Made by a program: the position numbers and the translations under genes
The notes under the pieces: generated by a model
Database searches by the model: none
What the model was told of the DNA's origin: nothing
The model's input: the letters and a program-made list of their open reading frames with translations, nothing else
From: a virus
Length of the DNA stretch: 27,268 bases
IMG/VR virus record: IMGVR_UViG_3300046002_007055
Span: 1-27,268 of that record
Direction: 5' to 3' (one strand)
Shown here: positions 3,069 to 24,336 of the stretch, piece after piece
How positions within the stretch are numbered: the first letter of the stretch is position 1
Layout of the letters: every line of letters begins with the position of its first letter

Positions 3069-3550
3069 GCAAATCCATCACAGTCCTCATGTGGGAGCCT
3101 GTAACGGGATACCAAGCCATGACAAGCCAACTTTGGCCATGGATAAAGGCAACGCTTGTGGCAGGTCACAAACTGACCGTCAAGGCGTCAGTGCAAGAAG
3201 ATGACCGCACCCTGATTCAGAACCGTTTTTACTGGTCCGCCGGTTGCTTGGGTGCCATTGCTGAACAAGCCAAAGTGGCTGGCATTCGTTATGAGTCCGA
3301 TGCTTGGCACAACCTGTTCAAGCGCAAGTTCTTGGGTTACGAGATTCTGAAAGAAAAGGTGGCCGGAACCAAACGCACTTTGGTGATCAGGCGATTGCGC
3401 AGCACCAGTGATTTGAAGGTCAAGGCCATGAATACGTACCTGGAGCAAGTTCAAGCCTATGCCACCACCGAGTTGGGTGTGATTTTTGAGACTCAAGGCT
3501 GGCGACATGCAATAGATCCAGAAACGGGTGAGATTCGAGGCATGCGGTGA
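3065..3550 (+). CDS. ninB: NinB-like recombination protein
   Basis: A 161-residue protein resembling lambda NinB (Orf), a single-strand DNA-binding recombination mediator that can stand in for RecFOR. Recognisable family features include the region around TLIQNRFYWSAGCLGAIAEQ, where the target protein is expected to enter a helical core, and a central basic stretch (KRTLVIRRLRSTSDL). The C-terminus is short and acidic-basic mixed. The ATG at 3065 overlaps the VRR-NUC stop as ATGA, so I reject the longer in-frame start at 2957, which would run deep into the nuclease gene. Its place between a structure-specific nuclease and the putative late antiterminator matches the nin-region position in lambdoid phages. 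Confidence 0.75.
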   Translation: MSKSITVLMWEPVTGYQAMTSQLWPWIKATLVAGHKLTVKASVQEDDRTLIQNRFYWSAGCLGAIAEQAKVAGIRYESDAWHNLFKRKFLGYEILKEKVAGTKRTLVIRRLRSTSDLKVKAMNTYLEQVQAYATTELGVIFETQGWRHAIDPETGEIRGMR

Positions 3551-4308: not shown

Positions 4309-4590
4309 ATGCCTGCTACCACCACAATGGTTCACGTTCGCGTGGACGAAAAAATCAAGACTCAGGCTGCAGAAACACTGAGCTCAATGGGCTTGACCGT
4401 TTCGGATGCAATACGCGTGTTCCTGACCCGGATCGTTGCTGACAAGGCGCTGCCGTTCGATTTGAAGGCACCGAATGAGACCAGTCGTGCCGCCATTGCC
4501 GAGGCCGATCAGATGATCCAGAGCCGTCGCGCACGCTTTGCAACTGCTGATGCTCTGTTGAATGACCTCGAAAAAGTCGACCATAAGTAA
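4309..4590 (+). CDS. RelB/DinJ-family antitoxin
   Basis: A 93-residue protein with an N-terminal ribbon-helix-helix domain (about residues 8-40; VHVRVDEKIKTQA...SDAIRVFLTRI) followed by the DinJ-like segment DKALPFDLKAPNETSRAAI, typical of RelB/DinJ antitoxins paired with YafQ toxins. The RHH part would dimerise and bind the palindrome at 4265-4287, and the C-terminal half should wrap the toxin. AGGAG at 4298-4302 gives a good ribosome site for the ATG at 4309. The toxin gene starts inside the antitoxin 3' end (29-bp overlap), ensuring coupled synthesis with antitoxin first. The pair is probably a moron carried for lysogen stability or phage defence. Confidence 0.88.
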   Translation: MPATTTMVHVRVDEKIKTQAAETLSSMGLTVSDAIRVFLTRIVADKALPFDLKAPNETSRAAIAEADQMIQSRRARFATADALLNDLEKVDHK

Positions 4591-4891
4591 GCGGGCAAAT
4601 TTGCCCCGTGCTTCTGACTACACCAGAGAGTTTCAAAAGGACTGGCAGCGATTGACCCACTCCGGCCGTTATGACATGAACCGCCTAAAAGAGGCCATGT
4701 TGTTGCTGGTCGCTAACAGCGGGCCGCTACCGCCTGAGTGGTTAGACCACATGTTGACGGGGGACTGGGCTTTCCATCGTGAATGCCACATTGGCGGTGA
4801 TTTCCTGCTTATCTACAGGCTTGACGACTCGGGTAAGACCGGGTCGGTGGTGTTTGTGCGCAGCGGGACACATGCTGAGCTTTTTTCGTGA
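4562..4891 (+). CDS. YafQ-family mRNA interferase toxin
   Basis: A 109-residue RelE-superfamily toxin that, by family, cuts mRNA in the ribosomal A site. It lines up without gaps with E. coli YafQ over the C-terminal half. The YafQ catalytic residues H50, H63, D67 and H87 correspond to H63 (LDH), H76 (ECH), D80 (GGD) and H104 (GTH) here. YafQ W68 is replaced by Phe81, a conservative aromatic change. The N-terminus has about 15 extra residues before the usual YafQ start; they are encoded within the overlap with the antitoxin gene, so an internal TTG at 4601 could be the true start. The toxin looks intact and probably active. Confidence 0.85.
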   Translation: MTSKKSTISKRANLPRASDYTREFQKDWQRLTHSGRYDMNRLKEAMLLLVANSGPLPPEWLDHMLTGDWAFHRECHIGGDFLLIYRLDDSGKTGSVVFVRSGTHAELFS

Positions 4892-5295: not shown

Positions 5296-5574
5296 TTAAA
5301 GCGCGCCAAGATCATGTTCTGGTAATGCCAAGTCTCCCAGCGCACCATCTCTGTTGTTCAGCCACAAAGCAGTTGCCACCACACCGATGCTCACTGGGGG
5401 ATCACCCGCTTCAAGGCGCTGGAGCGTAGAGAGGCTAACGCCCAATCGCTTTGACCAGGTGCACAGCGACTTCTTCCTGCGCAAACGGGCCACAGCAAGG
5501 TCTGCACCAAGCTTTTGGAGTGATCCCAAGGTGGCAGGAGGGAGCAGGTTAATGGCTTTGGCGCTTCTTGGCAT
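5296..5574 (-). CDS. HipB-like XRE antitoxin, C-terminally truncated
   Basis: A 92-residue HTH protein (MPRSAKAINLLPPATLGSLQ; HTH around residues 36-58 with RLGVSLSTLQRLEAG) of the type encoded directly before HipA toxins (ATALWLNNRDGALGDLALPE). It ends at a TAA at 5298-5296. The same frame continues past this stop for some 26 codons of plausible HipB tail (LDVRQAVQLGQARAQASAE...RMRASKK), so the stop looks like a nonsense mutation rather than the native end. The DNA-binding domain is complete and the upstream inverted repeat is intact. The protein may therefore still bind its operator as an orphan regulator, although its toxin has been deleted. Confidence 0.65.
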   Translation of the reverse strand: MPRSAKAINLLPPATLGSLQKLGADLAVARLRRKKSLCTWSKRLGVSLSTLQRLEAGDPPVSIGVVATALWLNNRDGALGDLALPEHDLGAL

Positions 5575-5622
5575 ACCGATATATCAATGCAAATAGGCAT
5601 ACTTTGTATCGTTATATCGGTA
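5574..5622. promoter_or_regulatory. Operator of the HipB-like gene
   Basis: A perfect 10-bp inverted repeat, TACCGATATA (5574-5583) and TATATCGGTA (5613-5622), is separated by 29 bp of AT-rich sequence. The near arm overlaps the first base of the minus-strand start codon. HipB-type antitoxins bind paired inverted sites before their own operon, so this is the expected autoregulatory site. No promoter hexamers could be assigned with confidence. Confidence 0.6.
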
Positions 5623-5787
5623 CATATCAAGGGTGGCATAGTGATCGTGCGGTTTCCCTCAAAAGTTTGCAGATGATTACCGTGTCATATCTCTGGCGAT
5701 GTAAATTTGCGCTATCTGCAAAATAAGGTGGACAAGGCGGCTAGATTGAATATGGCCGTCAATTTCAACGATGGGGATGGTCGTTTC

Positions 5788-6336
5788 ATGAAAGATATGC
5801 TGGTGGTTTTTTCTCACGGCAAAGAGTCTGGCCCTTTGGGCTCCAAGATTCGTGCCCTGATGAAGGTAGCTGAAAGTCATGGTGCCGAAGTCTTGTCAGT
5901 GGACTACCGCGAGCATCCTGTCGGCACATTTCATGATCAGAATGCACCTGGTGAAGCAGACAGGCGGGTGAATCAACTGCTGGCTACTCCGTTACCGGAG
6001 CACCGGCAATTGGTACTGGTGGGCTCCAGCATGGGGGGTTATGTGTCAACCGTGGCGAGCAAAGACACGGCGGCTGCGGGCTTGTTTTTGCTGGCACCGG
6101 CTTTCTACTTACCCGGCTACACCGTACAGGATATATCGCTTGACGTCAGCAAAACCGTGGTCATTCACGGTTGGCGTGATGATGTTGTGCCGGTGCAGAA
6201 CAGCATTCGTTTTGCCCAGCGACATCGGTGTGGTCTGTATTTGATTGACGGAGACCACCGCCTCAATGAGGCGCTTCCCAAGATTGAACCCTTGTTTGCA
6301 CTGTTTTTGGCGCAAGTATCCAGTGCACAGGATTAG
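5788..6336 (+). CDS. Small alpha/beta-hydrolase fold protein
   Basis: A 182-residue esterase-like protein. The elements visible in order are VVFSHGKES (oxyanion-loop region, 6-14), the nucleophile elbow GSSMG with Ser81, a WRDDVVP segment carrying the likely catalytic Asp131 or Asp132, and GDH with His157. It lacks a lid or a signal peptide and should be cytoplasmic. Homologs of this small class usually begin close to the FSHGKESGP motif, so I chose the ATG at 5788 (GGGGA at 5773-5777) over the ORF start at 5707. The substrate is unknown. It lies between toxin-antitoxin loci and the packaging genes, on the same strand as the late genes, and is probably an accessory host-type gene carried by the phage. 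Confidence 0.72.
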   Translation: MKDMLVVFSHGKESGPLGSKIRALMKVAESHGAEVLSVDYREHPVGTFHDQNAPGEADRRVNQLLATPLPEHRQLVLVGSSMGGYVSTVASKDTAAAGLFLLAPAFYLPGYTVQDISLDVSKTVVIHGWRDDVVPVQNSIRFAQRHRCGLYLIDGDHRLNEALPKIEPLFALFLAQVSSAQD

Positions 6337-6381
6337 GGTGATGGCGTAAAGATCCGCCAAGCTTCGCATAGGGGCGAAGGC

Positions 6382-6657
6382 ATGGCGACCATGGTTGTGA
6401 AGCGCATCAGAGGCAGAGCATTACAAGCACTGCGTCATCGCCACCTGAGTGCACATCCTTTATGTGTGGTGTGTATGGCGCAAGGGCGTTTCACAGCAGC
6501 CACTGAACTTGATCACATCGTCGCCTTATGCAACGGAGGCGGCAACACGGACAGCAACTACCAAGCCTTGTGCCATGGCTGTCACCAAGACAAGACGGCA
6601 ATGGACAAGGGCCACACAGTTAGAGCAAGCACAGGGCTAGATGGCTGGCCACTGTGA
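6382..6657 (+). CDS. HNH endonuclease (packaging-associated)
   Basis: A 91-residue HNH nuclease. A zinc-binding Cys pair (C28, C31 in LCVVC) precedes the first motif ELDHIVAL with Asp44-His45. Asn59 follows in the NYQALC segment, then C64 and C67 and the final His68 with K71-T72 (CHGCHQDKT). HNH proteins encoded immediately before the terminase genes, as HK97 gp74, are needed for terminase cleavage at cos during head filling. Its position, directly before a candidate cos and the small terminase, fits. The G/A-rich sequence GGGGCGAAGG upstream of the ATG at 6382 serves as a ribosome site; a second in-frame ATG lies at 6391. Confidence 0.88.
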   Translation: MATMVVKRIRGRALQALRHRHLSAHPLCVVCMAQGRFTAATELDHIVALCNGGGNTDSNYQALCHGCHQDKTAMDKGHTVRASTGLDGWPL

Positions 6658-6676
6658 TGCTCAGATTTGTGGTGAT

Positions 6677-6730
6677 GCGGGTAGGGGCCATAAATCACTG
6701 CGGGATAAGCCTCGGAAACCGTAGCCAAGC
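6677..6730. other. Candidate cos (packaging) site
   Basis: In the 127-bp gene-free gap between the HNH and small terminase genes lies GCGGGTAGGGGCC, then TAAATCACTGCGGG and further G- and C-rich blocks ending AAACCGTAGCC. Phages with an HNH-terminase block commonly have cos here, and a G-run followed by an AAATC-x-CT-like block recalls cos regions I have seen in such phages. No nicking position or overhang can be assigned by reading. Confidence 0.35.
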
Positions 6731-6784
6731 CTCTCTTTTAATTCATTTACGGAAAAACGTGTCCAAACGGAACGGATTCAAGCC

Positions 6785-7243
6785 ATGGCAAGAAAAAAAG
6801 CACTGAGCCGAGACAGTCACTCGCACGTGATCAAACTCGTCTCAGAACTGTCTGAATCCATTCCTTTACCGGCGGGCGTGACCCTCAGAGATGAGGCTGA
6901 AATGGTCATTTGGGAGCAGTTCACCCGCGCGCGCACTCGCGAGGGCTGGCGTGAGTTTGATTTGCTGACACTGTCCAAGGCGGTTTATCTGGAGGCCGAC
7001 ATTCGCAAATATCGAATTGCTTTGGATAAGTCTGGCCCCATCGTCAAGAACGACAAAGGCACCCAGATCGTCAACCCATTCATTTCCCTGATCGACAGTT
7101 TGACAAGGTTGCAACTGGCGATCACCCGCACGCTGTCCATGAACCAGACCGCACAAGACCCCCGAACCTTGAACGGTCAGGGGCAAGAGCAAACCCGACT
7201 GCGCAATGTGGTCGATGATTTTGATGACCTGATCCCAAGATGA
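6785..7243 (+). CDS. Small terminase subunit (P27-like)
   Basis: A 152-residue protein with the features of the P27 small-terminase family: a helical N-terminal DNA-binding part (DEAEMVIWEQFTRARTR...REFDLLTLSKAVYLEADIRK) and a central oligomerisation segment that ends in the typical SLTRLQLAITRTLSMN helix. The C-terminus is acidic (VVDDFDDLIPR). TerS recognises phage DNA at cos or pac and recruits the large subunit. The neighbours agree: HNH nuclease upstream, large terminase downstream. It is separated from the latter by two inserted genes for a ParB-like protein and a DNA methylase. The stop overlaps the next start as ATGA. Confidence 0.8.
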   Translation: MARKKALSRDSHSHVIKLVSELSESIPLPAGVTLRDEAEMVIWEQFTRARTREGWREFDLLTLSKAVYLEADIRKYRIALDKSGPIVKNDKGTQIVNPFISLIDSLTRLQLAITRTLSMNQTAQDPRTLNGQGQEQTRLRNVVDDFDDLIPR

Positions 7244-7740
7244 AAATTGAACAACTGTCTGTTGAGGCCCTGATCCCTTATGCCTTGAACAGCCGAACGC
7301 ATGACGACGCCCAGGTGGCACAGATTGCAGCCAGCATTCGGGAGTTTGGTTTCACCAACCCAGTCCTGATCGACAAGGATGGCGGCATCATTGCCGGTCA
7401 TGGCCGGGTGATGGCCGCCAGAAAGCTGGCCTTGTCAAAGGTGCCATGTATCCGCATGGCTCATCTGACTGACACACAGCGACGGGCTTATGTCATTGTG
7501 GACAACAAGCTGGCTTTGAATGCAGGCTGGGACCAATTGCTGCTCGAAGGAGAGCTGCAGGGTCTTCACGCCGCTGAGTTTGATATGGGCTTGCTCGGGT
7601 TTGAGCCCGTGGAATTGCAGGCGGCCATGGGCATTGACATGGACACGCACCAGTCAAGGACCAAAGAGATTGATCCGGATGAGTTCGATCTGAACTGCAA
7701 GTGCCCCAAATGTGGGTTCGAGTTCGATGCAAAAACCTGA
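7240..7740 (+). CDS. ParB/sulfiredoxin-fold protein with C-terminal zinc ribbon
   Basis: A 166-residue protein with an N-terminal ParB/Srx domain: LIPYALNSRTHDD, NPVLID at 40-45, the phosphate-binding GHGR motif at 53-56, and the QRRAYVIVDNK segment. Such domains bind nucleotides (CTP in ParB, ATP in Srx) and some phage versions have nuclease activity. The C-terminus is a compact Cys cluster (C153, C155, C158 in CKCPKCGFEFD), a zinc-ribbon tail. In many phages this ParB domain is fused to an adenine methyltransferase; here the methylase is lacking and the gene is followed by a separate cytosine methyltransferase that starts inside its 3' end. A role in DNA modification or packaging-site handling is inferred from position. 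Confidence 0.75.
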   Translation: MKIEQLSVEALIPYALNSRTHDDAQVAQIAASIREFGFTNPVLIDKDGGIIAGHGRVMAARKLALSKVPCIRMAHLTDTQRRAYVIVDNKLALNAGWDQLLLEGELQGLHAAEFDMGLLGFEPVELQAAMGIDMDTHQSRTKEIDPDEFDLNCKCPKCGFEFDAKT

Positions 7741-8830
7741 TTGCGCTTGGAACCTCACGGATCTGAAGATGGTTTCCAAAAATGGCGTCAAGGTGATGAG
7801 CACGTTTGCATGTGGCGGCGGATCCAGCATGGGCTACAAACTTGCCGGATGTGAGGTGGTTGCAGCCAACGACATTGACCCAGAGATGGCTTGGCACTAC
7901 AAACTCAACATCAACCCGAAGCACTATTTCCTGTGCCCCATCCGGGACCTGCTCACCGCAGAGCTGCCGCCGGAGTTGTTTGATTTGGATATTCTGGATG
8001 GCTCTCCGCCATGCAGCACATTCAGTCTTGCGGGTAACCGAGAAAAGGACTGGGGCAAGGAAAAGCATTTCAAAGAAGGTCAAGCCAAGCAAGTGCTCTC
8101 AGACCTTTTCTTTGACTACCTTGATCTGGTGGGGCGTCTCAGGCCCAAGGTTGCCATCGCAGAAAACGTCAAGGGTTTGATCTCGGGGAACGCCAAGGGT
8201 TACACCAAGTTGATCATGGCCAGGTTCAAAGAATTGGGCTACCGCCCGCAGTTGTTTTTGTTGAACGCTGCGGACTGTGGCGTTCCTCAAAAACGTGAGC
8301 GCGTTTTCTTTTGCGCAGTTCGTGATGATCTGGATGTGCCAGCCTTGAAGCTCTTACCCACACATCACTGGATAGGAGCTGCGGCTGCGACCCGAGATAT
8401 TCAAGTTTTGACGGATGAAGAAAAAGAAGAAACAAAACCCAGCCCCAATGATTTGAAGTGCTGGCCCAACACAGTGCCTGGCAAGAACTATGCGGTGTAT
8501 TTGCTCAAGGCAGAAAACCGTGTGTCATGTTTCAATCAGTTCAGGCTTGATCCATTGGTGCCCAGCAACACGTTGACCGCCACCTCGGGTCTTTATACGC
8601 ACTGGTCGCAGTGCAGAAAACTCACCCTGCGTGAATGGAAGCGATTGGGAAGTTTCCCCGATGACTACCAGGCCAAGAACGCACGCATTGGCGCGTACTT
8701 GATTGGCATGAGTGTGCCGCCCAAATTGACGCAGCAGGTTGCTCGGGCAGTGTGTGAGCAGTGGCTGGGTAAGAAATACACGCAAGCAGCCTCACAGGCC
8801 GCCGATAAAGCAACAGAACAACTGCGCTGA
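7727..8830 (+). CDS. DNA (cytosine-5)-methyltransferase
   Basis: A 367-residue C5 methylase with all key motifs in order. Motif I FACGGGSSMGY (27-37) is the SAM site, DIDPE at 49-53, and motif IV GSPPCSTFS has the catalytic Cys96. Motif VI AENVKG has Glu146, motif VIII is QKRERVFF (188-195), and a C-terminal motif near residues 325-345 (IGMSVPPKLTQQVARAV) resembles motif X. The target-recognition region (about 200-300) is short. It probably modifies phage DNA to escape host restriction. I chose the ATG at 7727 because homologs start near this point; it overlaps the ParB-like gene by 14 bp. The gene lies inside the terminase pair, so it is expressed with the packaging genes. No cognate restriction enzyme is present. 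Confidence 0.92.
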   Translation: MQKPDCAWNLTDLKMVSKNGVKVMSTFACGGGSSMGYKLAGCEVVAANDIDPEMAWHYKLNINPKHYFLCPIRDLLTAELPPELFDLDILDGSPPCSTFSLAGNREKDWGKEKHFKEGQAKQVLSDLFFDYLDLVGRLRPKVAIAENVKGLISGNAKGYTKLIMARFKELGYRPQLFLLNAADCGVPQKRERVFFCAVRDDLDVPALKLLPTHHWIGAAAATRDIQVLTDEEKEETKPSPNDLKCWPNTVPGKNYAVYLLKAENRVSCFNQFRLDPLVPSNTLTATSGLYTHWSQCRKLTLREWKRLGSFPDDYQAKNARIGAYLIGMSVPPKLTQQVARAVCEQWLGKKYTQAASQAADKATEQLR

Positions 8831-12482: not shown

Positions 12483-12812
12483 ATGACAACAACCTACAAA
12501 GTTCTCGGCCAGTGCGCCGCACAAGCCTCTACAAACACCGACCTTTACGCGGTTCCCTCCGCCACACAAACAGTGTGCAGCACATTGGCAGTGTGCAACC
12601 GAAGCATCTCAACAACGTTTCGAGTGGCTGTTCGACCGTCTGGTGCCACTCTTGCTGACCAGCACTACATCGTTTATGACAACTACGTCAACCAGTACGA
12701 CACGGTATTTCTCACGCTCGGGGTGACGCTGGCGGCAACGGATGTGGTCAGCGTCTACGCTGGAGCGGCCACACTTTCATTTTCTTTGTTTGGCTCAGAG
12801 GTGGCCGAATGA
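12483..12812 (+). CDS. Putative virion protein, 109 aa
   Basis: A single beta-sandwich-like domain: MTTTYKVLGQCAAQASTNTD, then YAVPSATQTVCSTLAVCNRS, FRVAVRPSGATLADQHYIVY, DTVFLTLGVTLAATDVVSVY. This pattern (a bundle of short strands with the VRPSGATLADQHYI signature) is a known phage family of unknown function that I associate with decoration or fibre proteins. Four Cys residues are absent from typical relatives in my recollection. It starts two bases after the previous stop, and its stop overlaps the start of the LRR gene as ATGA, so all three small proteins and the LRR protein are translationally linked. Confidence 0.65.
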   Translation: MTTTYKVLGQCAAQASTNTDLYAVPSATQTVCSTLAVCNRSISTTFRVAVRPSGATLADQHYIVYDNYVNQYDTVFLTLGVTLAATDVVSVYAGAATLSFSLFGSEVAE

Positions 12813-14620
12813 GTGTCCGCACAGTTCAAGGCTCTGGGATGGCTCAGCGCCACACCTCAAGCGCGGTGAAGTCTGCGGGCGAGAATGTTCTGGTCACTGT
12901 GTCGCCTTGGGTTCGTAACCCATCTTGGCTTGAGATGCCCACCGTTTTGAGCACTGATCAGAAATTCATCGGGCTGATCGCGGTCTTCTCCGACTCGTCG
13001 TATTCAGCCCTGACCGCTTCGGGCAATTACGTTGTGGATTGGGGCGATGGCACATCGCTGCAAAATGTTGCAAGCACTGCTCAAGCAGATCACCTCTACG
13101 ACTATTCATCGGCTGCTCTGACAGGAAGCGATGCGCCAGTGACCTTCACGGCATCCAACAGTACGGTCAATCGCCCAGCACATGGTTACAGCAATGACAT
13201 GGTGGTGCGCTTTTTCTGCATTGAATCGACAACAAGCTTGATTGAGGGACAGTTTTACCATGTCATCAATGCCCAAGCCGATGAATTTCAAGTCGCATCC
13301 ACGGTAGGGGGTGCAGCCGTCGCTTTGACAAATGACGGTTCAGCGGCCTTATTGCCTTACAAGCAAGCACTGGTCACAGTGACACCTCAAGCTGGGCACA
13401 ATCTGAGCGCCCTGAACTTGAACATCAAGAATTCCACAACGGGATTGGGCCAGTACGAGGCGGGATGGCTTGACATGACGGTGGGCAGTCCCAATTTCAG
13501 CACTGTGGGATTGTCCATTGCAGCAAGCTCTTCAAGCCGAGCTGTCATCATGAACATGTGTGAACGTGTGACAGTTGAGAATTTTGGCGGTGTGACCGAT
13601 TTGAGTTACCGCTTCTACGGCATGTCCATGTTGATGTCTGTCAACTTGTCCAACACGTCAGCAGTGACGGTGATGACAAGCATGTTCCAAGGCTGCACTA
13701 GCCTTCAGACATTGCCGCTGTTCAACACGGCAGCCGTGACGGTGATGGCGAGCATGTTTCAAGGCTGCTCTGGCCTGCAGACCATACCGCTGTTCAATAC
13801 CTCGGCCGTGACGAACATGAGCTCCATGTTCAGTATCTGTTTTGGCCTGAAGACTCTGCCATTGATGAACACATCGGCCGTGACGAACATGTCCAGCATG
13901 TTCCAAAACTGCTTCAGCCTGCAAAGCCTGCCACTGATCAATACATCCGCTGTGACGAACATGACCGCCATGTTCAGTACCTGCTACAGCTTGCAGAACG
14001 TGCCACTGTTCAACACGATGGCCGTGACGAATATGACGCAGATGTTCGGTACTTGCTACAACCTGAAGGCCGTGCCACTTTTCAACACGTCAGCAGTGAC
14101 GAACATGACGCAAATGTTTTACAACTGCTACAACCTCAAGACCGTGCCGCTGTTCAAAACGACAGCAGTGACGGTGATGAACAGCATGTTTTATAACTGC
14201 TCAGTTCTTCTCAAAGTGCCGTTGTTCAACACATCATTGGTGACGAACATGAGCCAGATGTTTTACAGCTGCTCAAGCCTTCAGTCCGTGCCACTGTTCA
14301 ACACGGCAGCCGTGACCAACATGTCGCAGATGTTCACAGGTTGCCTTGTTCTTCAAACAGTGCCTGCATTGAACTGCACTTCGGTCACGCTGCTTGGATC
14401 GATATTCGGATCTGACCCACAGTTGTCTCGCATCCAAGCCACAGGCATCAAGTACAGCTTCAGTGTGGCAAGTTGCAAGCTTTCAGCCGCTGCACTGAAT
14501 GAGATTTACGCGAACTTAGGCACTGTCACTGGGCAATCCATTACCGTCAGTGGCAACTACGGAACGACCACCGATGATCCCTCCATTGCTTCGGCAAAAG
14601 GCTGGACTGTCATTGGGTGA
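12809..14620 (+). CDS. BspA-like leucine-rich-repeat virion or surface protein
   Basis: A 603-residue protein in three parts. Residues 30-105 form a PKD/Ig-like strand region with VDWGDGT at 76-82, as in bacterial BspA-type proteins. Residues 110-185 look like an FCCH-like insert (PAHGYSNDMVV... GQFYHVINAQADEFQV). Residues 282-521 hold ten 24-residue repeats, consensus NTSAVTNMSxMFxxCxxLxxVPLF, with a degenerate eleventh; this is the DUF285/BspA-type LRR, a fold that binds proteins or glycans. A 60-residue cap follows. No signal peptide or anchor is present, so export would have to be by the virion. I infer a head- or neck-attached adhesin or decoration protein. Its location between portal and protease is unusual. 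Confidence 0.8.
   Translation: MSVRTVQGSGMAQRHTSSAVKSAGENVLVTVSPWVRNPSWLEMPTVLSTDQKFIGLIAVFSDSSYSALTASGNYVVDWGDGTSLQNVASTAQADHLYDYSSAALTGSDAPVTFTASNSTVNRPAHGYSNDMVVRFFCIESTTSLIEGQFYHVINAQADEFQVASTVGGAAVALTNDGSAALLPYKQALVTVTPQAGHNLSALNLNIKNSTTGLGQYEAGWLDMTVGSPNFSTVGLSIAASSSSRAVIMNMCERVTVENFGGVTDLSYRFYGMSMLMSVNLSNTSAVTVMTSMFQGCTSLQTLPLFNTAAVTVMASMFQGCSGLQTIPLFNTSAVTNMSSMFSICFGLKTLPLMNTSAVTNMSSMFQNCFSLQSLPLINTSAVTNMTAMFSTCYSLQNVPLFNTMAVTNMTQMFGTCYNLKAVPLFNTSAVTNMTQMFYNCYNLKTVPLFKTTAVTVMNSMFYNCSVLLKVPLFNTSLVTNMSQMFYSCSSLQSVPLFNTAAVTNMSQMFTGCLVLQTVPALNCTSVTLLGSIFGSDPQLSRIQATGIKYSFSVASCKLSAAALNEIYANLGTVTGQSITVSGNYGTTTDDPSIASAKGWTVIG
13652..14371 (+). repeat. Ten tandem 72-bp repeats encoding LRR units
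   Basis: Ten consecutive 72-bp units, each coding one 24-residue BspA-type repeat, with a weaker eleventh unit to about 14443. Units are diverged in sequence but share blocks such as GTGACGAACATG and CTGTTCAACAC, enough to allow copy-number change by recombination. Translation is continuous throughout, and the spacing has no unique spacers, so this is not a CRISPR array. Confidence 0.9.
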
Positions 14621-14659: not shown

Positions 14660-15139
14660 ATGCTTGGCTTTAACGCCATCGCAGCGGCCCCCATAGCGGG
14701 TAATGTCGATTCAAGTGTTTCGGTATTGGGCTCATCTGGTTCAGCGAGCGCAGGCATGTTGCGTGGCCATGGTTCAGGGGCCATCAGACTCGGTGGCGTT
14801 GATGGCGCAAGCGCAAACGGGATATTGGTGGCTAATGGCTCTGCTGAAGTCGGTTTCAGTGGTGTAAGTGTTGCTACTCAAATTGAACGGCTCCAAAGTT
14901 TTGGTGGCGCTTATGCACCCCTCTTTGGAGCTCAAGCCGCATCCGCTTGTGGGATTCAATTTGCCAAAGGCGATGCGGTCCGTTTGCTTTTTTTAGAGGC
15001 AGTGACTGCTCAGTCGGGCGTGATGGATGCTTGGGGAAATCGGACCGTATTTCAACCAAATGAAAGGACATGGATGATCGAAGCCCAGGATCGAACATTT
15101 CCGGTCAAAGTGCAAAACAGAACATGGTGGGTCATTTGA
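14660..15139 (+). CDS. Gly/Ala/Ser-rich hypothetical virion protein
   Basis: A 159-residue low-complexity protein: the first 75 residues are Gly/Ala/Ser/Val-rich (GSSGSASAGMLRGHGSGAIR), followed by a short hydrophobic part and a C-terminal tail with a repeated aromatic motif (ERTWMIEAQDRTFPVKVQNRTWWVI). Such ERxW / DRTF / NRTW tails occur in small phage structural proteins of this cassette type, but no role is known to me. No clear Shine-Dalgarno precedes the ATG at 14660. The 39-bp gap after the LRR gene holds no terminator. The next gene follows after two bases. Confidence 0.5.
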   Translation: MLGFNAIAAAPIAGNVDSSVSVLGSSGSASAGMLRGHGSGAIRLGGVDGASANGILVANGSAEVGFSGVSVATQIERLQSFGGAYAPLFGAQAASACGIQFAKGDAVRLLFLEAVTAQSGVMDAWGNRTVFQPNERTWMIEAQDRTFPVKVQNRTWWVI

Positions 15140-18014: not shown

Positions 18015-18701
18015 GTGGCTTTAAAAATGACTGCTCCACCTGCCGTGGAGCCTTTTTTGGTGAGTGATGCAAGTCTGCGCCAACAGCTTCGCCTTGATAT
18101 TGGTGACACCAGCCAAGATACAGTGCTCGCCATTTTTATTGGCCAAGCTCGAGAGGCTGCCGAGCAAGACTGCCGGCGTGCGTTCATCACCCAGTCATGG
18201 CTGATGACGATGGACAAGTTTCCCATGCCGGGTATGGAGACATCAAGTGCCAACGGGTACGGTCCAGCCTGGGGTACAAGTCCAGGTCCATTGACCACTG
18301 TGCGGCCTGACAACTCCACAGGCCATGAAATCGCAATCCCTTTGCCACCGTTGCAGACGATTGATTCGATCAAATATTACGACCCCAATGGGGTTTTGAT
18401 GACGTTGGACCCGAGCCAATATTTCGTGGACTCAGTGTCTGAGCCTGCAAGGGTGATCCCTGCGCCTGGAGCGGCCTGGCCAAGCACCTTGAACCGGGCC
18501 AACGCGGTTGAAGTTCGATTCACATCAGGGTGGGACAGCACCGGTTTGACCTTGCCCAATGGCATCCGGGCCTGGATGCTGCTGAGAATCTGCGATCTTT
18601 TTGAAAACCGGGAAGCTGTGGTGATGGGTGCACGGGGGACTGTTGCAACACATCCCTATATCGAGCGATTGCTGGATCCCTACAGAGTGAGGGTGTACTG
18701 A
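18015..18701 (+). CDS. Head-tail connector (gp6/phiE125 gp8-like)
   Basis: A 228-residue protein of the HK97 gp6-like connector class (phiE125 gp8 family). The N-terminal helical part (SDASLRQQLRLDIGDTSQDT... FIGQAREAAEQDCRRAFITQ) is the typical gp6 signature and is followed by a beta insertion with FTSGWDST and a C-terminal helix ending DLFENREA. It forms the ring beneath the portal. The GTG at 18015 has AGGA (18005-18008) six bases before it, better placed than for the ATG at 18027. The stop shares a base with the next start. It is the first gene after the strong terminator. Confidence 0.85.
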   Translation: MALKMTAPPAVEPFLVSDASLRQQLRLDIGDTSQDTVLAIFIGQAREAAEQDCRRAFITQSWLMTMDKFPMPGMETSSANGYGPAWGTSPGPLTTVRPDNSTGHEIAIPLPPLQTIDSIKYYDPNGVLMTLDPSQYFVDSVSEPARVIPAPGAAWPSTLNRANAVEVRFTSGWDSTGLTLPNGIRAWMLLRICDLFENREAVVMGARGTVATHPYIERLLDPYRVRVY

Positions 18702-19054
18702 TGTTTGGCCATACGGCGGGACAGCTGCGTCACAGCATCATCATTGAGCAACGGAGCACGTCTGTTGATGCCGCCGGTCAGCAGTCCATCTTCTGGGCTG
18801 AATTGGCATCAACGTGGGCAAAGATAGAACCTACATCAGGTGGTGAGCAATCTGGCGTGGGTGAGAGCCGCGCACAAATCAGCCATATTGTCACGATCAG
18901 GCACCAAGCCGTGTTTGATGATCCGCGTGTCGCTGCCAAGTGCCGAATTAATTTCAAAGGGCGCTACCTGGACATCCTCCATTGCCGAAATTTGGAAGAG
19001 CGCGGCCGTTGGGATGTTCTGGAGTGCGTCGAGGGCCTGAAATATGTTGCTTGA
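18701..19054 (+). CDS. Head-tail adaptor / head-closure protein
   Basis: A 117-residue small beta protein of the Phage_H_T_join (SPP1 gp16-like) family: GQLRHSIIIEQRSTSVDAAG, a TWAKIEPTSGGEQ strand, SHIVTIRHQAVFDDPRVAAK and the end WDVLECVEGL. It closes the head after packaging and offers the docking surface for the tail. The ATG at 18701 overlaps the connector stop. Directly after its TGA (19052-19054), and in the same frame, the sequence continues as the C-terminal end of a gp10 gene, so an upstream-anchored deletion removed the rest of that gene exactly to this stop. Confidence 0.85.
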   Translation: MFGHTAGQLRHSIIIEQRSTSVDAAGQQSIFWAELASTWAKIEPTSGGEQSGVGESRAQISHIVTIRHQAVFDDPRVAAKCRINFKGRYLDILHCRNLEERGRWDVLECVEGLKYVA

Positions 19055-19180
19055 ACTTCAAAACGTCAACCCTTCATGCGCCCCGCATTTGAGTCAAAAA
19101 AACAAAGCGCTGTCAAAGCGATCAAAGACTATTTGGCTACCCGTATCCCCTTGGAACTTCAAAAATTAAGAAAACGATGA
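19055..19180 (+). pseudogene. Remnant of an HK97 gp10-like gene (C-terminal 41 codons)
   Basis: Open in frame from the adaptor stop, this reads TSKRQPFMRPAFESKKQ and continues to LRKR-stop. It matches the C-terminal end of the intact gp10 at 19754 (TSRMSARPFLRPAFEARKQ); hand alignment of the 32-residue tail gives 20 identities. The first three quarters of the gene are missing and no ribosome site or start precedes it. Its TGA (19178-19180) overlaps the DUF3168 start as ATGA, the ordinary coupling between gp10 and gp11, so this is the native gp10 of the left-hand phage, almost completely deleted. Confidence 0.75.
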
Positions 19181-19533
19181 GCATGATCACCCAACTTTTC
19201 TCGCTCCTGAATGGGGCAACAGATGCGGGCGGGAAGGTCTACCCCATGGTGGCACCCGATCAAACACGGGCACCGTTCATCACATACCAGCGAATCAGCT
19301 GGGTTAGTGAGGACGTCCTCGATGGCAGCCATGTTGACCTGGTCAACACCCGTTTGCAAATCGACATCTTCGCACCCACCTATTTGAAAGCAGCCTCTAT
19401 CAGCGAGAAGGTCGAAACCTTGATGATGGGCGGCTTTGCCCAAATCGTCTCAATTCAAAGCCAAGAAACCTATGAAGCAGCCGTCGATTTGTACCGCGTG
19501 ATTGCCGAGTATTCGATTTGGCACAAGCCCTGA
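19177..19533 (+). CDS. DUF3168 tail-completion protein (gp11-like)
   Basis: A 118-residue protein of the DUF3168 family: GGKVYPMVAPDQTRAPFITY, QRISWVSEDVLDGS, a VDLVNTRLQIDIFA core and the ending LYRVIAEYSIWHKP. DUF3168 proteins sit between head-tail joining gp10 and the tail tube and form the tail terminator. Its ATG overlaps the stop of the gp10 remnant (ATGA). It is the only complete DUF3168 in the window, belongs to the left side of the mosaic seam and must serve the tail genes that come from the right side. Confidence 0.8.
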   Translation: MSMITQLFSLLNGATDAGGKVYPMVAPDQTRAPFITYQRISWVSEDVLDGSHVDLVNTRLQIDIFAPTYLKAASISEKVETLMMGGFAQIVSIQSQETYEAAVDLYRVIAEYSIWHKP

Positions 19534-19556
19534 CAGGCTTTCTTTTTCCCCCTCCC

Positions 19557-19580
19557 AACCCGCCTCGGCGGGTTTTCTTT
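19557..19580 (+). terminator. Intrinsic terminator after DUF3168
   Basis: AACCCGC (19557-19563) pairs with GCGGGTT (19568-19574) around a CTCG tetraloop, followed by TTTTCTTT. It lies 24 bp after the DUF3168 stop and just before the tail-tube fragment, mirroring the terminator at 20308 before the intact tail tube. Confidence 0.75.
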
Positions 19581-19597
19581 TATCTGAAAGGTCAATC

Positions 19598-19735
19598 ATG
19601 GCATCCACAGCAATTTCGGCACAAGGCACGGTTTTGAGCATTGGAACAGGCACAGGTTCAAGCAAAGCCATCACGGGCATGGCATTGGACATCCGCATCA
19701 CGCTACTGGCCTCCCAAGGCTTGAACGAAGGATGA
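19598..19735 (+). pseudogene. Tail-tube gene remnant, 45 codons
   Basis: Begins MASTAISAQGTVLSIGTGTG, clearly homologous to the start of the intact tail tube at 20343 (MTSTAISAQGSVLSLATGSG). After about residue 28 it jumps to ALDIRITLLASQ, which may correspond to the DVRIT segment near the tail-tube C-terminus, implying an internal deletion of roughly 150 codons. It ends ASQGLNEG at the TGA at 19733-19735. A 45-residue piece cannot form a tube. It may still be translated, as the start region is intact. The next gene starts 18 bp on with a very strong ribosome site. Confidence 0.7.
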
Positions 19736-19753
19736 CAAAAAAGGAGGAAATTC

Positions 19754-20242
19754 ATGGCTGAACTTGAACACGTAAAAGGCCTCAAAGAGTTGTCTGCGGC
19801 CCTCAGAATGCTGCCCGACCGGATTGCCCGCAATGCCCTGAGAGGGGCAGTCTCAGCGGCTGCCGCCGTGGTGCGAAAGGAAGCGAGGCAGCGGGCACCC
19901 GTTTCAACTGGACCCATTAAACCGGGAGATCCAGCGCCGGGAACCCTCAAGCGGGCGATCTTCCAGAAACAGATCCCGCAGCTGTCCAGTCTGCTGAGCC
20001 AGACTTTTTATGTCGGAGTGCGTCACGGTAAGCGTTATCGCGTGAAGGGCAAAAAGGGCAACCTCTCCCAGGATGCTTACTACTGGCGGTGGGTGGAGTT
20101 CGGCACCTCCCGCATGAGTGCCCGCCCGTTTCTGCGGCCCGCCTTCGAAGCGCGAAAGCAAGCGGCGGTGCAAGCACTGGCTGACTACCTGGCCGTGCGC
20201 ATCCGCGAGGAGGTGACCAAGTTGCCGGGGAGCAAACGGTGA
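19754..20242 (+). CDS. HK97 gp10-like head-tail protein
   Basis: A 162-residue protein of the HK97-gp10 family: GLKELSAALRMLPDRIARNA, the basic helix VVRKEARQRAPVSTG, YYWRWVEFGTSRMSARPFLR and a basic tail. It helps join head and tail. AAGGAGG (19740-19746) gives the strongest ribosome site in this part of the window. Here composition becomes GC-rich: 40 of 60 at 19801-19860 by hand count, against 30 of 60 at 19381-19440. The gene stands after, not before, the DUF3168 and a broken tail tube, so gene order is abnormal and points to the seam between two parental phages. Confidence 0.85.
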   Translation: MAELEHVKGLKELSAALRMLPDRIARNALRGAVSAAAAVVRKEARQRAPVSTGPIKPGDPAPGTLKRAIFQKQIPQLSSLLSQTFYVGVRHGKRYRVKGKKGNLSQDAYYWRWVEFGTSRMSARPFLRPAFEARKQAAVQALADYLAVRIREEVTKLPGSKR

Positions 20243-20292
20243 TCCAGAAAGACCTTCAAGTTGAGGCGCAAACGGACACTCGTGCCAGTTAA
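20239..20292 (+). pseudogene. Possible gutted DUF3168 remnant, 17 codons
   Basis: From the GTG at 20239, overlapping the gp10 stop as GTGA, this reads MIQKDLQVEAQTDTRAS and ends at TAA (20290-20292). The overlap is exactly where DUF3168 normally starts after gp10, and MIQKDL fits a DUF3168 N-terminus; the DTRAS end may be its C-terminal part. It is too short for certainty, but it sits in the slot and order expected of the right-hand phage's own gp11 after an internal deletion. Confidence 0.4.
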
Positions 20293-20307
20293 CACTTTCT
20301 TCACATC

Positions 20308-20332
20308 AGCCGCCTTCGGGCGGCTTTTTCTT
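20308..20332 (+). terminator. Intrinsic terminator before tail tube
   Basis: A 7-bp stem, AGCCGCC (20308-20314) with GGCGGCT (20319-20325), capped by a very stable TTCG tetraloop and followed by TTTTTCTTT. It lies directly before the tail-tube ribosome site. Confidence 0.88.
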
Positions 20333-20342
20333 TGGAGCTTTT

Positions 20343-20975
20343 ATGACCTCTACCGCAATCTCGGCTCAGGGCTCGGTGCTGTCGCTTGCCACAGGCAGCG
20401 GAACCGCCAAGAGCATCTCGGGCGTCACGCTGGGCAATCCCACCATCATCACTTCAACTGCTCACGGCTTGTCGGTGGGCGATGTGATCACCATCTCGGG
20501 TGTGAACGGGACCACTTCTGTGAATGGATCCTGGGTGGTCCGCAACAAGACCACCAATACGTTTGCCGTAGACCTGGACACCACGGGAACGTCTGTCTAC
20601 ACCACAGGCGGCTCGGCGGTGCCGGTGCTGTGGACAGCGATTGCCAACGTGCGTACCTTCACGGGCTTTGATGGCGCGGCCAACATCATCGATGTGACCA
20701 ATCTTTCCTCGAGCGCGGAAGAGATTCGTCCTGGTATCCCGCGCTTTGGCCAGATGTCCTTTGAGATCGACTGGGACCACTCGGATGCCGGGCATCTGGC
20801 CTTGCTGGCCAAACAGCTCACGCAGGCACAAACGGCTTTCAAGCTGGGTTTGCCAGACACCCATGTGGCGTCCTGGAATGGCTATGTCATGAAAGTCCCA
20901 AGCCAGGGCGGTGTCGACCAAGTGGTTCGCGGCACGGTGGATGTACGCATCACGGGTCCCGTCACCTGGAGCTAA
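20343..20975 (+). CDS. Major tail tube protein
   Basis: A 210-residue tail tube protein. The tube domain is split: residues 1-28 (MTSTAISAQGSVLSLATGSG) and 95-210 (WTAIANVRTFTGFDGAANII, EEIRPGIPRFGQMSFEIDWD, VVRGTVDVRITGPVTW). Between them, residues 30-93 form an extra domain with HGLSVGDVITISGV and NGSWVVRNKTTNTFAVDLD, the FCCH-like small beta module often inserted in phage structural proteins and probably displayed on the tail surface. The tube polymerises around the tape measure. TTTGGAG before the ATG is the ribosome site and a terminator precedes it. The homolog at 19598 is a broken relic from another lineage. Confidence 0.85.
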   Translation: MTSTAISAQGSVLSLATGSGTAKSISGVTLGNPTIITSTAHGLSVGDVITISGVNGTTSVNGSWVVRNKTTNTFAVDLDTTGTSVYTTGGSAVPVLWTAIANVRTFTGFDGAANIIDVTNLSSSAEEIRPGIPRFGQMSFEIDWDHSDAGHLALLAKQLTQAQTAFKLGLPDTHVASWNGYVMKVPSQGGVDQVVRGTVDVRITGPVTWS

Positions 20976-21033: not shown

Positions 21034-21441
21034 ATGACCAAAATCCTCAGCAAATCAGACATCATTGCCGCCCAGGACCTACAGACGCAGGACGTGCAAG
21101 TCCCGGAGTGGGGCGGCAGCGTTCGGGTGCGATCGCTCACCGGTACCGAGCGCGATGCGTTCGAGACTTGCCTTGTCAAAGTGGTCGATGGCAAGCGCGT
21201 TCCCGACATGGACAACCTGCGAGCCAAGCTGCTGGCCGCAACCCTTGTCGATCAAAACGGCACTCCCCTGTTTTCTGTTGGTGATGTGGGGGACCTGAGC
21301 GATCTGGGTAGCAAGAGCGCTGCAGCGCTCGACCGGATCTTTGGCGTGGCGCAGCGGCTGAACGGCATGGCCGCTGATTCTGTGGAGGCCGCAGTAAAAA
21401 ACTCCGAGCCCGGCCAGAGCGACGGTTCTACTTCCGTCTAG
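21034..21441 (+). CDS. Tail assembly chaperone, upstream (G-like) product
   Basis: A 135-residue protein (SDIIAAQDLQTQDVQVPEWG, SVRVRSLTGTERDAFE, an LRAKLLAATLVDQNGTPLFS segment) of the tail-chaperone family that coats the tape measure before tube polymerisation. Most ribosomes would stop at the TAG at 21439. Near the end the gene carries A AAA AAC (21396-21402) in the correct phase for a -1 slip. Slipping gives a longer G-T fusion ending at 21746. The short C-terminal tail (NSEPGQSDGSTSV) after the slip site is disordered, as in lambda gpG relatives. Confidence 0.85.
   Translation: MTKILSKSDIIAAQDLQTQDVQVPEWGGSVRVRSLTGTERDAFETCLVKVVDGKRVPDMDNLRAKLLAATLVDQNGTPLFSVGDVGDLSDLGSKSAAALDRIFGVAQRLNGMAADSVEAAVKNSEPGQSDGSTSV
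21396..21402 (+). promoter_or_regulatory. Programmed -1 frameshift site (A AAA AAC)
   Basis: The heptamer AAAAAAC is positioned as X XXY YYZ relative to the upstream chaperone frame (GTA AAA AAC). The -1 frame is open from the slip to the TGA at 21744-21746, and the sequence it adds joins smoothly onto the known T-domain. The predicted fusion is 237 residues. A GC-rich stretch follows within 10 bases but I did not establish a definite stem or pseudoknot. Confidence 0.85.
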
Positions 21442-21455
21442 CCCTGGCGCTGGGC

Positions 21456-21746
21456 ATGTCGGTGCGCCAACTGCTGGCAAGTATGGACAGCTGTGAAATC
21501 ACCGAGTGGATCGCCTACGACCAGCTCGAGCCCTTTGGCGAGCAACGCGAGGACCTGCGGGTTGGCCAAATTTGCAGCACGGTGGCCAATCACAGTTTTT
21601 CGCCTCCAAGAAAGCCGCGCAAACCCACGGACTACATGCTGTTTGCGCATGCCGCTCACCCTGAAACCCAAGCCACCCAGTTGAAAGATGCCAAGGCGCA
21701 GTCGGACTTGATCCGGCAGGTGATCTTTGGCGTGAAGAAAGTCTGA
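21456..21746 (+). CDS. Tail assembly chaperone T domain (made by -1 frameshift)
   Basis: The 96-residue ORF starting at MSVRQLLASMDSCEITEWIA is the downstream part of the chaperone, with the DUF4035-like core SxxExxEWxAYxxLEPFGE. The frame stays open upstream to the slip at 21396-21402; the preceding residues PERRFYFRLALALG belong to the T domain and lie outside the ATG-started ORF, so this is not a separately initiated gene. The ATG at 21456 has no good ribosome site. As in lambda G-T, the fusion binds the tape measure and recruits tube subunits. Confidence 0.85.
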   Translation: MSVRQLLASMDSCEITEWIAYDQLEPFGEQREDLRVGQICSTVANHSFSPPRKPRKPTDYMLFAHAAHPETQATQLKDAKAQSDLIRQVIFGVKKV

Positions 21747-21747
21747 C

Positions 21748-24336
21748 ATGTCCCTGGGCACCCTTGTCGTTGAACTCACGGCCAACGTTGCGAAGTTCCA
21801 AAGTGACCTGGGACGCGCCGAGCAAATGGCTCAGAACTCGGCCAAGCGCATCGATGACCAGTTTGGCATCGTCAAGAATGCGCTGGCCAACTTCGGGGTG
21901 GGGCTGGCATCGGCCTACACGTTCGATGCCATCACCAAAAAGATCAAAGGGGTGATCAGCTCGGCCGCTGACTTGCAACAACTGTCCGAGCGCACGGGTG
22001 CGACCGTGGAAAGCCTCTCTGGCCTGTCCAGCGTGGCCAAGCTCTCAGGCACCGATTCCGAAGCACTGGCCACGGGCCTGCAAAAGCTCTCGCGCACCAT
22101 GGTCGATGCCCAGCAAGGCGGCACCAAGACGTCTGTTGCCTTTGCAGCGCTGGGCATCAGCGCCAAGAACTTGGCTTCGCAGCGCCCGGAGGATGTGTTC
22201 GTGCAGATTGCAACTCAGATGTCCAAGTACCAGGACGGTGCGGGCAAGACAGTGATTGCCATGGAGCTGTTGGGCAAGTCCGGTGCCAACTTGCTGCCCG
22301 TCATGAAAGACCTGGTTGAAGTCGGCGGCTACCAGGTCAAGGTCACCAGCGCTCAGGCAGCGATGGCCGATGAGTACGAGAAGAACATGATCCGGTTGCA
22401 TGCCTCCACGGACGCGATCTTCAAGAAGATCGGTCTGGAGCTGATCCCGGTGTTCAACGCCTTTGCCAAGGCGATGCTGGAAAGCCAGAACGCCAACAAC
22501 GGCTTGAAATCCGCTGTGAACGAGCTGGCTGCTGACGGCTCCATCCGCAGTTGGGCCGAAGGCGCTGCCATCGGGATGGCTTATTTCATCGATGTGCTGA
22601 GCGTTGTGCCCGATGTGTTCCAGATTTTGGGCAAGACCATTGGCGCAGCAGCTGCACAGTTCATGGGGTTGGCTCAGGCTATCCAGGGCGTCTCGCAGGT
22701 CATGTCCGGCGACTTCAGGCGCGGCGTGCAGACCGCACAAGAGGGGCTGGCCCAGATCTCCGGTGTGGGCAACGAGTGGTGGAAGGACATGCAGGAGATC
22801 TGGAACAAGCCCTTGTTCTCCGATCGCCTGAAAAAGCAACTGGAAGAAGCCCGCAAGGGTGCAGACGGGGCCCCAAGGCCAAGCCTGCCCAACCTCAACC
22901 TGGGCGGGGACAACGAGGCACTCAAAAAGCAACTCGAACGCCAGCTCAAGGGGTTTGATCGGCAGATTCAGGATGAGCAGCGGCTGTTTCAAACCCGTGA
23001 GCAGTTCCTCACGCGCTTTTACAGCGAAGACCTGATCTCCATCTCGGACTACTTCGACGCGCGCAAGAACGCGCTCGATGAGAATCTGAAGAACACCCTG
23101 GCGGCCTATGACCAGGAAGTGGCGGCGATGCAGTCCTACATGGCCAAGGTGAACGATGCCAAGGCCAAGCTGGAAGCTCAGAACAGGGTTGCAGACATAG
23201 GCGATCGGGCCAGGCAAGCGACCAGCGAAGCGCAAAGCAAGTCGCTGCTGCTCACGCTCGATCAGGCCAAGGCCACCAAGGGGTATGCCGACGAGGTCGA
23301 GCGCCTGAACATCCGGCTGCTGGAGATGCAAGGTCACTTGGGTGAGTCCAGCAAGCGCCAGATTGCGCTGTCGGGCAGGCAAGCGCGTCAGCGATTCACG
23401 GTAGAAGGCGACACCTCGGCTCTGGGCATACTGGACAAGGTCGAAGCCTTGCAACGTGCTCAGGGCGAGATGAATGAGATCAACCTCAAGGCCAGCCAGA
23501 TTGAGCAAAAGCTCGCGATCACCGAAGGCACGCTGTCCGCGCAAAGGCAAAGGGGGACGATCACCGAGCTGGAGAATCTGGCCAGTGTGAGCGTGGCCCG
23601 TCAGAACTCCGCTGAAGACTTAGCCAAGATTGCAGCGCAGATGATGGCTGTGGCCGTGGCTTCGGGTGATCCGCGACTATTGCTCAACGCTCAGGCTTTC
23701 CAGATGAAGGTGGAGGGCATTGCGGCATCGGCGGATGTGCTGGGACTCAAATTCAAGAACATTTTTGAGGACGGCCTGGCCAACTTCCTTACCGATGTGA
23801 TCGGACGCACCAAGTCGTTCAAGGATGCATTTCTCGATATGGCCAAGGGGATCGAGCAGGCCATCACCCGCATCGTGGCGCAGAACCTGGCGCAAAGCCT
23901 GTTCGGTGCGTCCGGCATGTTTGGCTCCTCAGGCGGACTTGGGGGCCTGGGCTCATCCATTGGAGGGTTTGTCTCGGGACTCTTTGGCGGTGGTTCTGCT
24001 GCAGGGGCTGCAGGGGCTGCAGGGGGCGCTTCCTCGGCCGCATTTTTGGGAACGGGCCTGAAAGTACCGGCCTCGTTTTTGAACTTGTCGGGGCTTGCCA
24101 CTGGCGGCGATGCTTATTCCAACCAGGCCTACCTGGTTGGGGAGAACGGTCCGGAGATCTTTAGCCCCAAGAACTCGGGCACAGTGATTCCTAACAGCCA
24201 GCTGTCGGGACTGGGTGGATCCCGGCCGATCGTGATCAACAACCATTTCTCAGCAGGCACGGACTTGCGCACCATTGATCAGGCGGCCACGCAAGTGGGC
24301 CTGAGGGTGCAACGCGCCTTGAGCAGGAGCACCTGA
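21748..24336 (+). CDS. Tail tape measure protein
   Basis: An 862-residue tape measure. The N-terminus (LVVELTANVAKFQSDLGRAE) is the standard start of this family, followed by helical, coiled-coil-rich regions (about residues 385-500 and 520-650), a Gly/Ala-rich hydrophobic section near 720-765 (GLGGLGSSIGGFVSGLFGGG) and the conserved C-terminal block YLVGENGPEIFSP. At about 1.5 angstrom per residue the tail would be near 130 nm. The hydrophobic part probably enters the host inner membrane at injection. No peptidase or lysozyme insert is seen. It starts one base after the chaperone stop. A 501-codon opposite-strand ORF inside it is a composition artefact. Confidence 0.93.
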   Translation: MSLGTLVVELTANVAKFQSDLGRAEQMAQNSAKRIDDQFGIVKNALANFGVGLASAYTFDAITKKIKGVISSAADLQQLSERTGATVESLSGLSSVAKLSGTDSEALATGLQKLSRTMVDAQQGGTKTSVAFAALGISAKNLASQRPEDVFVQIATQMSKYQDGAGKTVIAMELLGKSGANLLPVMKDLVEVGGYQVKVTSAQAAMADEYEKNMIRLHASTDAIFKKIGLELIPVFNAFAKAMLESQNANNGLKSAVNELAADGSIRSWAEGAAIGMAYFIDVLSVVPDVFQILGKTIGAAAAQFMGLAQAIQGVSQVMSGDFRRGVQTAQEGLAQISGVGNEWWKDMQEIWNKPLFSDRLKKQLEEARKGADGAPRPSLPNLNLGGDNEALKKQLERQLKGFDRQIQDEQRLFQTREQFLTRFYSEDLISISDYFDARKNALDENLKNTLAAYDQEVAAMQSYMAKVNDAKAKLEAQNRVADIGDRARQATSEAQSKSLLLTLDQAKATKGYADEVERLNIRLLEMQGHLGESSKRQIALSGRQARQRFTVEGDTSALGILDKVEALQRAQGEMNEINLKASQIEQKLAITEGTLSAQRQRGTITELENLASVSVARQNSAEDLAKIAAQMMAVAVASGDPRLLLNAQAFQMKVEGIAASADVLGLKFKNIFEDGLANFLTDVIGRTKSFKDAFLDMAKGIEQAITRIVAQNLAQSLFGASGMFGSSGGLGGLGSSIGGFVSGLFGGGSAAGAAGAAGGASSAAFLGTGLKVPASFLNLSGLATGGDAYSNQAYLVGENGPEIFSPKNSGTVIPNSQLSGLGGSRPIVINNHFSAGTDLRTIDQAATQVGLRVQRALSRST

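Follow-up and report, generated by a model that had tools for sequence, protein, structure and literature searches.

The window, by which we mean the whole stretch of 27,268 bases that was analysed, is one virus contig held in IMG/VR as record IMGVR_UViG_3300046002_007055. Pfam and PHROG profiles identify a tailed phage in which the genes for terminase, portal, capsid, neck and tail follow one another consecutively; the contig is a fragment. Among relatives whose host is named, the nearest are prophage-like loci in Burkholderiales/Comamonadaceae MAGs, with capsid proteins approximately 62–66% identical. A search of a phage DNA database with the window gave only matches of 67–113 bp in 4 records, and neither half of the window was traced in this way.

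Several genes outside the neck are also recognizable. The early region carries an overlapping pair of a RelB/DinJ-type antitoxin (PF04221, E 4e-19) and a YafQ-type toxin (PF15738, E 1e-26) at 4309–4891, and a C5 cytosine DNA methyltransferase (7712–8830; PF00145, E 3e-48) lies immediately upstream of the terminase gene. Between the portal and capsid protease genes is a 603-aa BspA-type leucine-rich/DUF285 repeat protein (12809–14620; Pfam E 8e-44), and this interval is an odd site in a phage for a BspA-type protein. Upstream of the protease, a glycine/alanine-rich repeat protein of 159 aa (14660–15139) has no Pfam match; its version in L002, a related locus described below, spans at least 507 aa (1–1524).

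Genes and remnants at the head–tail junction

Following the equivalences in Table 1 of PMC11661146, we refer to the adaptor (Ad1, HK97 gp6), the stopper (Hc1, PF05521, HK97 gp7), the HK97 gp10-like tail completion protein (TCP; PF04883, Ne1, lambda gpZ), the terminator (DUF3168/PF11367, Tc1, HK97 gp11, SPP1 gp17) and the tail tube or major tail protein (HK97 gp12). All four proteins of the Type 1 (SPP1/HK97-like) neck, Ad1, Hc1, Ne1/TCP and Tc1, are present in the window, with PF05521, PF04883 and PF11367 scoring above their Pfam cut-offs; the PF05135 match of the adaptor is below the cut-off, and this gene was assigned by PHROG 442. The TCP, terminator, tail tube and stopper each occur as one intact copy accompanied by a remnant in syntenic position. 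The original prediction had described this region as two incomplete copies of a gp10–gp11–tail-tube set that together make one complete set; the observation is confirmed, with all of the listed pieces present where they had been placed, among them the intact DUF3168, gp10 and tail-tube genes.

Features of the head–tail junction in the window
Feature	Lineage	Position (strand)	Evidence
Adaptor (Ad1, HK97 gp6-like)	Left	18015–18701 (+)	PHROG 442, E 6e-20; 88% identical to L002
Stopper/head closure protein (Hc1, PF05521), intact	Left	18701–19054 (+)	Pfam E 9.7e-20; 79% identical to L002
Frame-shifted 41-codon ORF opened by the retained start codon of the left TCP	Left	19044–19169 (+)	Alignment with L002 5429–6004
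TCP (HK97 gp10-like, Ne1), C-terminal remnant	Left	19067–19180 (+)	No in-frame start codon
Tail terminator (DUF3168/PF11367, Tc1, HK97 gp11/SPP1 gp17), intact	Left	19177–19533 (+)	Pfam E 1.4e-10; 84% identical to L002
Transcription-terminator-like hairpin (CCCGCCTCGGCGGG + T run)	Left	19555–19582 (+)	L002 equivalent at ~6377–6404, same place
Tail tube, N-terminal remnant, ~28 codons	Left	19598–19684 (+)	Aligned to L002 tail tube from 6423
Tail tube, C-terminal remnant (LDIRIT, ~6 codons)	Left	19685–19699 (+)	Follows ~516-bp in-frame internal deletion relative to L002
Recombination seam	Left to right	19694–19707 (+)	Runs in frame from the 3′ end of the left tail tube into that of the right stopper; shared CTGGCC
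Stopper, C-terminal remnant (LLASQGLNEG-stop, ~10 codons)	Right	19700–19735 (+)	Stopper C-terminus matrix and nucleotide comparison
TCP (HK97 gp10-like, Ne1), intact	Right (probable)	19754–20242 (+)	Pfam E 1.2e-6
Terminator (DUF3168), start remnant (VIQKDLQ, ~7 codons)	Right	20239–20259 (+)	GTGA overlap retained
Transcription-terminator-like hairpin (GCCGCCTTCGGGCGGC + T run)	Right	20308–20331 (+)	Same place in L003, L005, L006 and L087
Tail tube (PF16460), intact	Right	20343–20975 (+)	83% identical to L004
Tail assembly chaperones	Right	21034–21746 (+)	60–69% to right-lineage loci, 45–52% to L002; PHROG 344
Tape measure protein	Right	21748–24336 (+)	Long matches to right-lineage loci at ~59–73%, L002 at 31%; PHROG tape measure families

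The C-terminal remnant of a left TCP comprises 37 codons that align with residues 155–191 of the 191-aa L002 protein at 78% identity, in keeping with the earlier recognition of a gp10 C-terminal remnant. In addition, the start of the left TCP survives: its ATG at 19044 still overlaps the stop codon of the stopper as in L002, and the first ~8 codons are retained. Between these ~8 first and 37 last codons, 439 bp are missing relative to L002, which puts the retained start codons out of frame. The resulting ORF ends 7 nt upstream of the terminator start, and reinitiation on the terminator may therefore have been preserved.

Measured against L002, the intact left genes have dN/dS values of 0.03–0.11, and the TCP and tail-tube remnants give 0.15 and 0.29, respectively, estimates that rest on 37 and 28 codons. 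Selection therefore maintained these sequences over most of the period since they diverged from L002, and the left remnants are young.

On the right side, the predicted 17-codon DUF3168 stub proved to be the start of a right terminator that keeps its GTGA overlap, but only the ~7 codons VIQKDLQ are recognizable. The position of this remnant and its CGGTGATCCAG are identical to L006, and L087 shares the start; comparison of the 3′ remainder of the stub gave no recognizable sequence match. Likewise, the suggestion that the same transcription terminator precedes both tail tubes held for its position only: the two hairpins differ, each matching that of its own lineage. Farther downstream, the chaperone genes occupy two overlapping frames: the first stops at 21441, and the second, whose ATG lies at 21456, is already open before that codon, an overlap like that of lambda G/GT programmed frameshifting.

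Two parental types

The true parents of the window are absent from our comparison, and the two parental types are represented by relatives approximately 20–35% diverged. The left type is L002/L156 (one contig), whose capsid protein is 93% identical to that of the window and which carries an intact series of stopper, TCP (5429–6004, 191 aa), terminator (6001–6357) and tail tube (6423–7064), followed by its own chaperones and tape measure. The right type is matched by L003, L004, L005, L006/L083, L084, L085 and L087, with tail tubes that are 74–83% and chaperones that are 64–68% identical to those of the window and with the order TCP–terminator–tail tube intact in 7 of 7 loci, where the contig covers it; adaptors of this type are 36–37%, and stoppers 30–37%, identical to the left copies in the window. 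L005 also holds, in its terminator–tail tube gap, an apparent toxin–antitoxin pair (2730–3239, minus strand; ParE-like and RelB/CopG-like by eye) that runs on the opposite strand and is missing from the close relative L004.

Phylogenies split the halves of the window. Its stopper forms a clade with L156 and L111, and its terminator groups with the same two loci, whereas its tail tube falls in a clade with L003, L004, L005, L012, L013 and L087 (SH-aLRT 100 in each case). The nearest relatives thus differ to the left and right of the joint. This bears out the original prediction that two lineages were joined, as opposed to a recent tandem duplication, and the two halves do not share their closest relatives. 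For these lineages we also rejected the idea that the arrangement is a stable ancestral order: stopper–TCP–terminator–tube, the canonical order, is found in both parental types.

The intact TCP probably belongs to the right lineage as well. It is 64–69% identical to right-type loci (65–69% to L003–L006) and 49% identical to L002, it is without the ~30-aa insert typical of left-type TCPs, its GC content is of the right type, and it is flanked on both sides by right-lineage remnants. Its tree places it nearest L003, L004, L005 and L087 with weak branch support (19), and a placement with L156/L111 survives an AU test (p 0.16). The assignment is therefore carried by the indel, the GC content and the contiguity.

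Base composition changes along with the relatives. A change point at 19795, near the seam, separates 52.9% GC from 59.1% GC with a log-likelihood gain of 42.7, whereas 300 block shuffles gave gains of no more than 13.0, and the GC rise first noted from hand counts is thereby established. Third-position GC is 0.42–0.66 in the left neck, capsid and remnants, and 0.69–0.75 in the right genes.

The joint and a proposed history

The joint lies within the 45-codon ORF at 19598–19735 that had been described as a gutted tail tube. The gutted gene is real, but the ORF consists of three pieces, MASTAISAQGTVLSIGTGTGSSKAITGMA-LDIRIT-LLASQGLNEG-stop, of which the last is the end of a right stopper, a fourth gene that had been overlooked. 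Positions 19685–19699 match tail-tube 3′ ends at 13 of 15 nt and stopper 3′ ends at 10 of 15 nt at most, whereas positions 19700–19732 match stopper 3′ ends at up to 26 of 33 nt and tail-tube ends at 17 of 33 nt at best. Scored with a matrix of stopper C termini, the seam fragment ranks first, far above the second, among 832 stop-anchored 18-mers in the window; across related loci, its score is equalled or exceeded by 3 of 90,739 other stop-anchored 18-mers, no fewer than 2 of which are true stopper ends. The stop codon of the fragment is 18 bases upstream of the right TCP start, and right-lineage relatives with a stopper–TCP gap have gaps of approximately 5–20 bases. The separation of nucleotide matches, the matrix rank and the spacing of the stop together place the joint at approximately 19694–19707.

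In relatives, the corresponding ends read …ATCACC GGACTGGCC in the L002 tail tube and …CTGCTGGCCAGC in the L004 stopper, with CTGGCC common to both; these ~6 shared bases are read from diverged relatives rather than from the true parents. Two other readings of the ORF were rejected. Its end is not the start of a left chaperone gene, as it matches stopper C termini, and its last 16 codons are not stopper throughout, as LDIRIT better fits tail-tube ends.

We consider it highly likely that an L002-type phage, providing the head, recombined out of register with an L003–L006/L012/L087-type phage, providing the tail, and that three deletions followed, with each function kept once. The two lineages, remnants, deletions and reciprocal survival are documented above. 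At the joint, the final codons of the left tail tube would have been continued in frame by the final codons of the right stopper, with few shared bases (CTGGCC). Because the joint lies near the last codons of both genes, the first recombinant would have been fully redundant and hence viable, with every neck and tube gene present at least once, the TCP, terminator and tail tube present twice, and no essential loss.

From such a full double set, an out-of-frame deletion of 439 bp would have cut into the left TCP and an in-frame deletion of ~516 bp into the left tail tube, and a third deletion would have taken the bulk of the right terminator, leaving VIQKDLQ. The stopper and terminator would then have survived from the left parent, and the TCP, tail tube and tape measure from the right; through these reciprocal losses each function would remain once and the original gene order, stopper–TCP–terminator–tube, would become stopper–terminator–TCP–tube. 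Nearest relatives, trees and mapped deletions thus support the earlier interpretation of a left phage (head) joined to a right phage (tail) and then trimmed of redundancy. Added to it here are the position of the joint, between the 3′ ends of the left tail tube and the right stopper, and a first recombinant that was probably complete in neck functions.

Could the seam be artificial? Two phages occurring together could have been joined in silico or by amplification, giving a chimera of assembly or library, and it is true that the window is a single metagenomic contig from IMG/VR and that a degenerate pattern search of IMG/VR for the seam found no second copy, although the nearest records possibly lie outside the scope of that search. 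However, a chimera would fuse two otherwise intact genomes, whereas here three extra deletions hit exactly the redundant copies, in complementary fashion and up to ~700 bp from the joint; moreover, joints share ~1–7 bases (judged from relatives), too few for a k-mer assembler, and every required function is present. As a chimera leaves the three complementary deletions away from the joint unexplained, we regard it as distinctly improbable.

The pseudogene remnants would also be expected in a defective prophage undergoing ordinary decay, in which random deletions happened to leave a complete set, and the contig is a fragment known from its sequence alone. Against this, each function of the neck and tail is represented by one intact gene, the neighbouring structural genes have open frames and the intact genes are strongly constrained relative to L002, with the low dN/dS values given above, which makes coincidental survival very improbable. 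An old tandem duplication within one lineage, with copies that diverged and then decayed, would explain why two gene-block copies lie adjacent in the same orientation, but it is rejected by the trees and nearest relatives, which differ between the copies, and it retains almost no credence given that the GC step runs to the right end of the contig instead of bracketing a block and that the downstream tape measure and chaperones also come from the second lineage.

If out-of-register joining was indeed followed by deletion, the choice of surviving copies can be compared with neck anatomy. In the 80-alpha neck, the TCP (the HK97 gp10 equivalent) and the tape measure join in a β-sheet, and the terminator ring sits directly under the stopper ring (PMC11661146); in lambda, the terminator ring is bound by the stopper ring (PMC10721106). 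The corresponding partners in the window come from the same parent, the terminator and stopper from the left and the TCP and tape measure from the right, and the sole newly mixed ring–ring contact is that of the left terminator on the right tail tube. The losses therefore look non-random and suggest, in this single case, that protein partnership may have decided which copy was lost. It follows from the anatomy that the left DUF3168 terminator should be compatible with the foreign right tail tube. More generally, the prediction is that a tail terminator is able to close off a tail tube of foreign origin, and that the stopper–terminator and TCP–tape measure pairs stay together. It is conceivable, but rather doubtful, that out-of-register joining of phages with partner-guided reciprocal loss is a general route by which the conserved neck order is permuted, with the terminator–stopper and TCP–tape measure contacts picking the surviving copy.

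Comparison with known neck arrangements and mosaic genomes

Among 447 phages, the commonest order of the Type 1 neck is Ad1–Hc1–Ne1–Tc1, and no phage carries a second Ad1, Hc1 or Tc1 (PMC4362835). The window has the same four proteins and a tail tube, but differs from this description in its remnants of second copies and in its functional order, Ad1–Hc1–Tc1–Ne1, the commonest order being typical rather than obligatory. Our survey of 98 dereplicated junctions, window included, contains 69 with the canonical order, 23 with the TCP after the chaperone and 1 (standing for L122/L125/L126) with the functional order of the window; two TCP copies occur only in the window. The 23 junctions in which the TCP follows the tail assembly chaperone rather than preceding the terminator include L119, L131 and L104, and they indicate that the position of the TCP has changed in more than one way.

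The L122/L125/L126 loci of IMG/VR share the order stopper–terminator–TCP–tube with the window, but belong to an unrelated lineage and are free of remnants. L126 indicates that this is a stable arrangement elsewhere, and the order of these loci is possibly the finished product of a similar event.

Phage mosaicism is usually read from finished, clean junctions, with the intermediate unseen, and whether joints arise by homology or at random is disputed. In the window, the joint, the redundancy and the trimming are all legible in one genome. It illustrates a way in which a viable head–tail fusion could be reached, by doubling everything and then deleting, and a way in which gene order can change without transposition; it also suggests which neck interfaces may tolerate mixing. 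As in the mosaics of tailed phages, for which illegitimate and relaxed homologous recombination are debated (PMC3945230), and of mycobacteriophages (PMC3029335), two diverged genomes meet close to the ends of structural-module genes, and function is kept. Unlike the usual clean junction, the joint of the window is out of register and the redundant remnants are still there, so that the sequence of steps is legible.

The closest formal parallel outside mosaicism is tandem duplication–random loss, a model of mitochondrial gene order; a literature search for this process in phages, partial in coverage, gave only a mitochondrial review. Both involve a repeated block from which one copy of each gene is lost, a permuted order and remnants where they are expected; in the window, however, each of the two copies has a different viral source, and genes have apparently been lost non-randomly. 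The class of mechanism, phage mosaicism, is known, and the legible intermediate is the new part.
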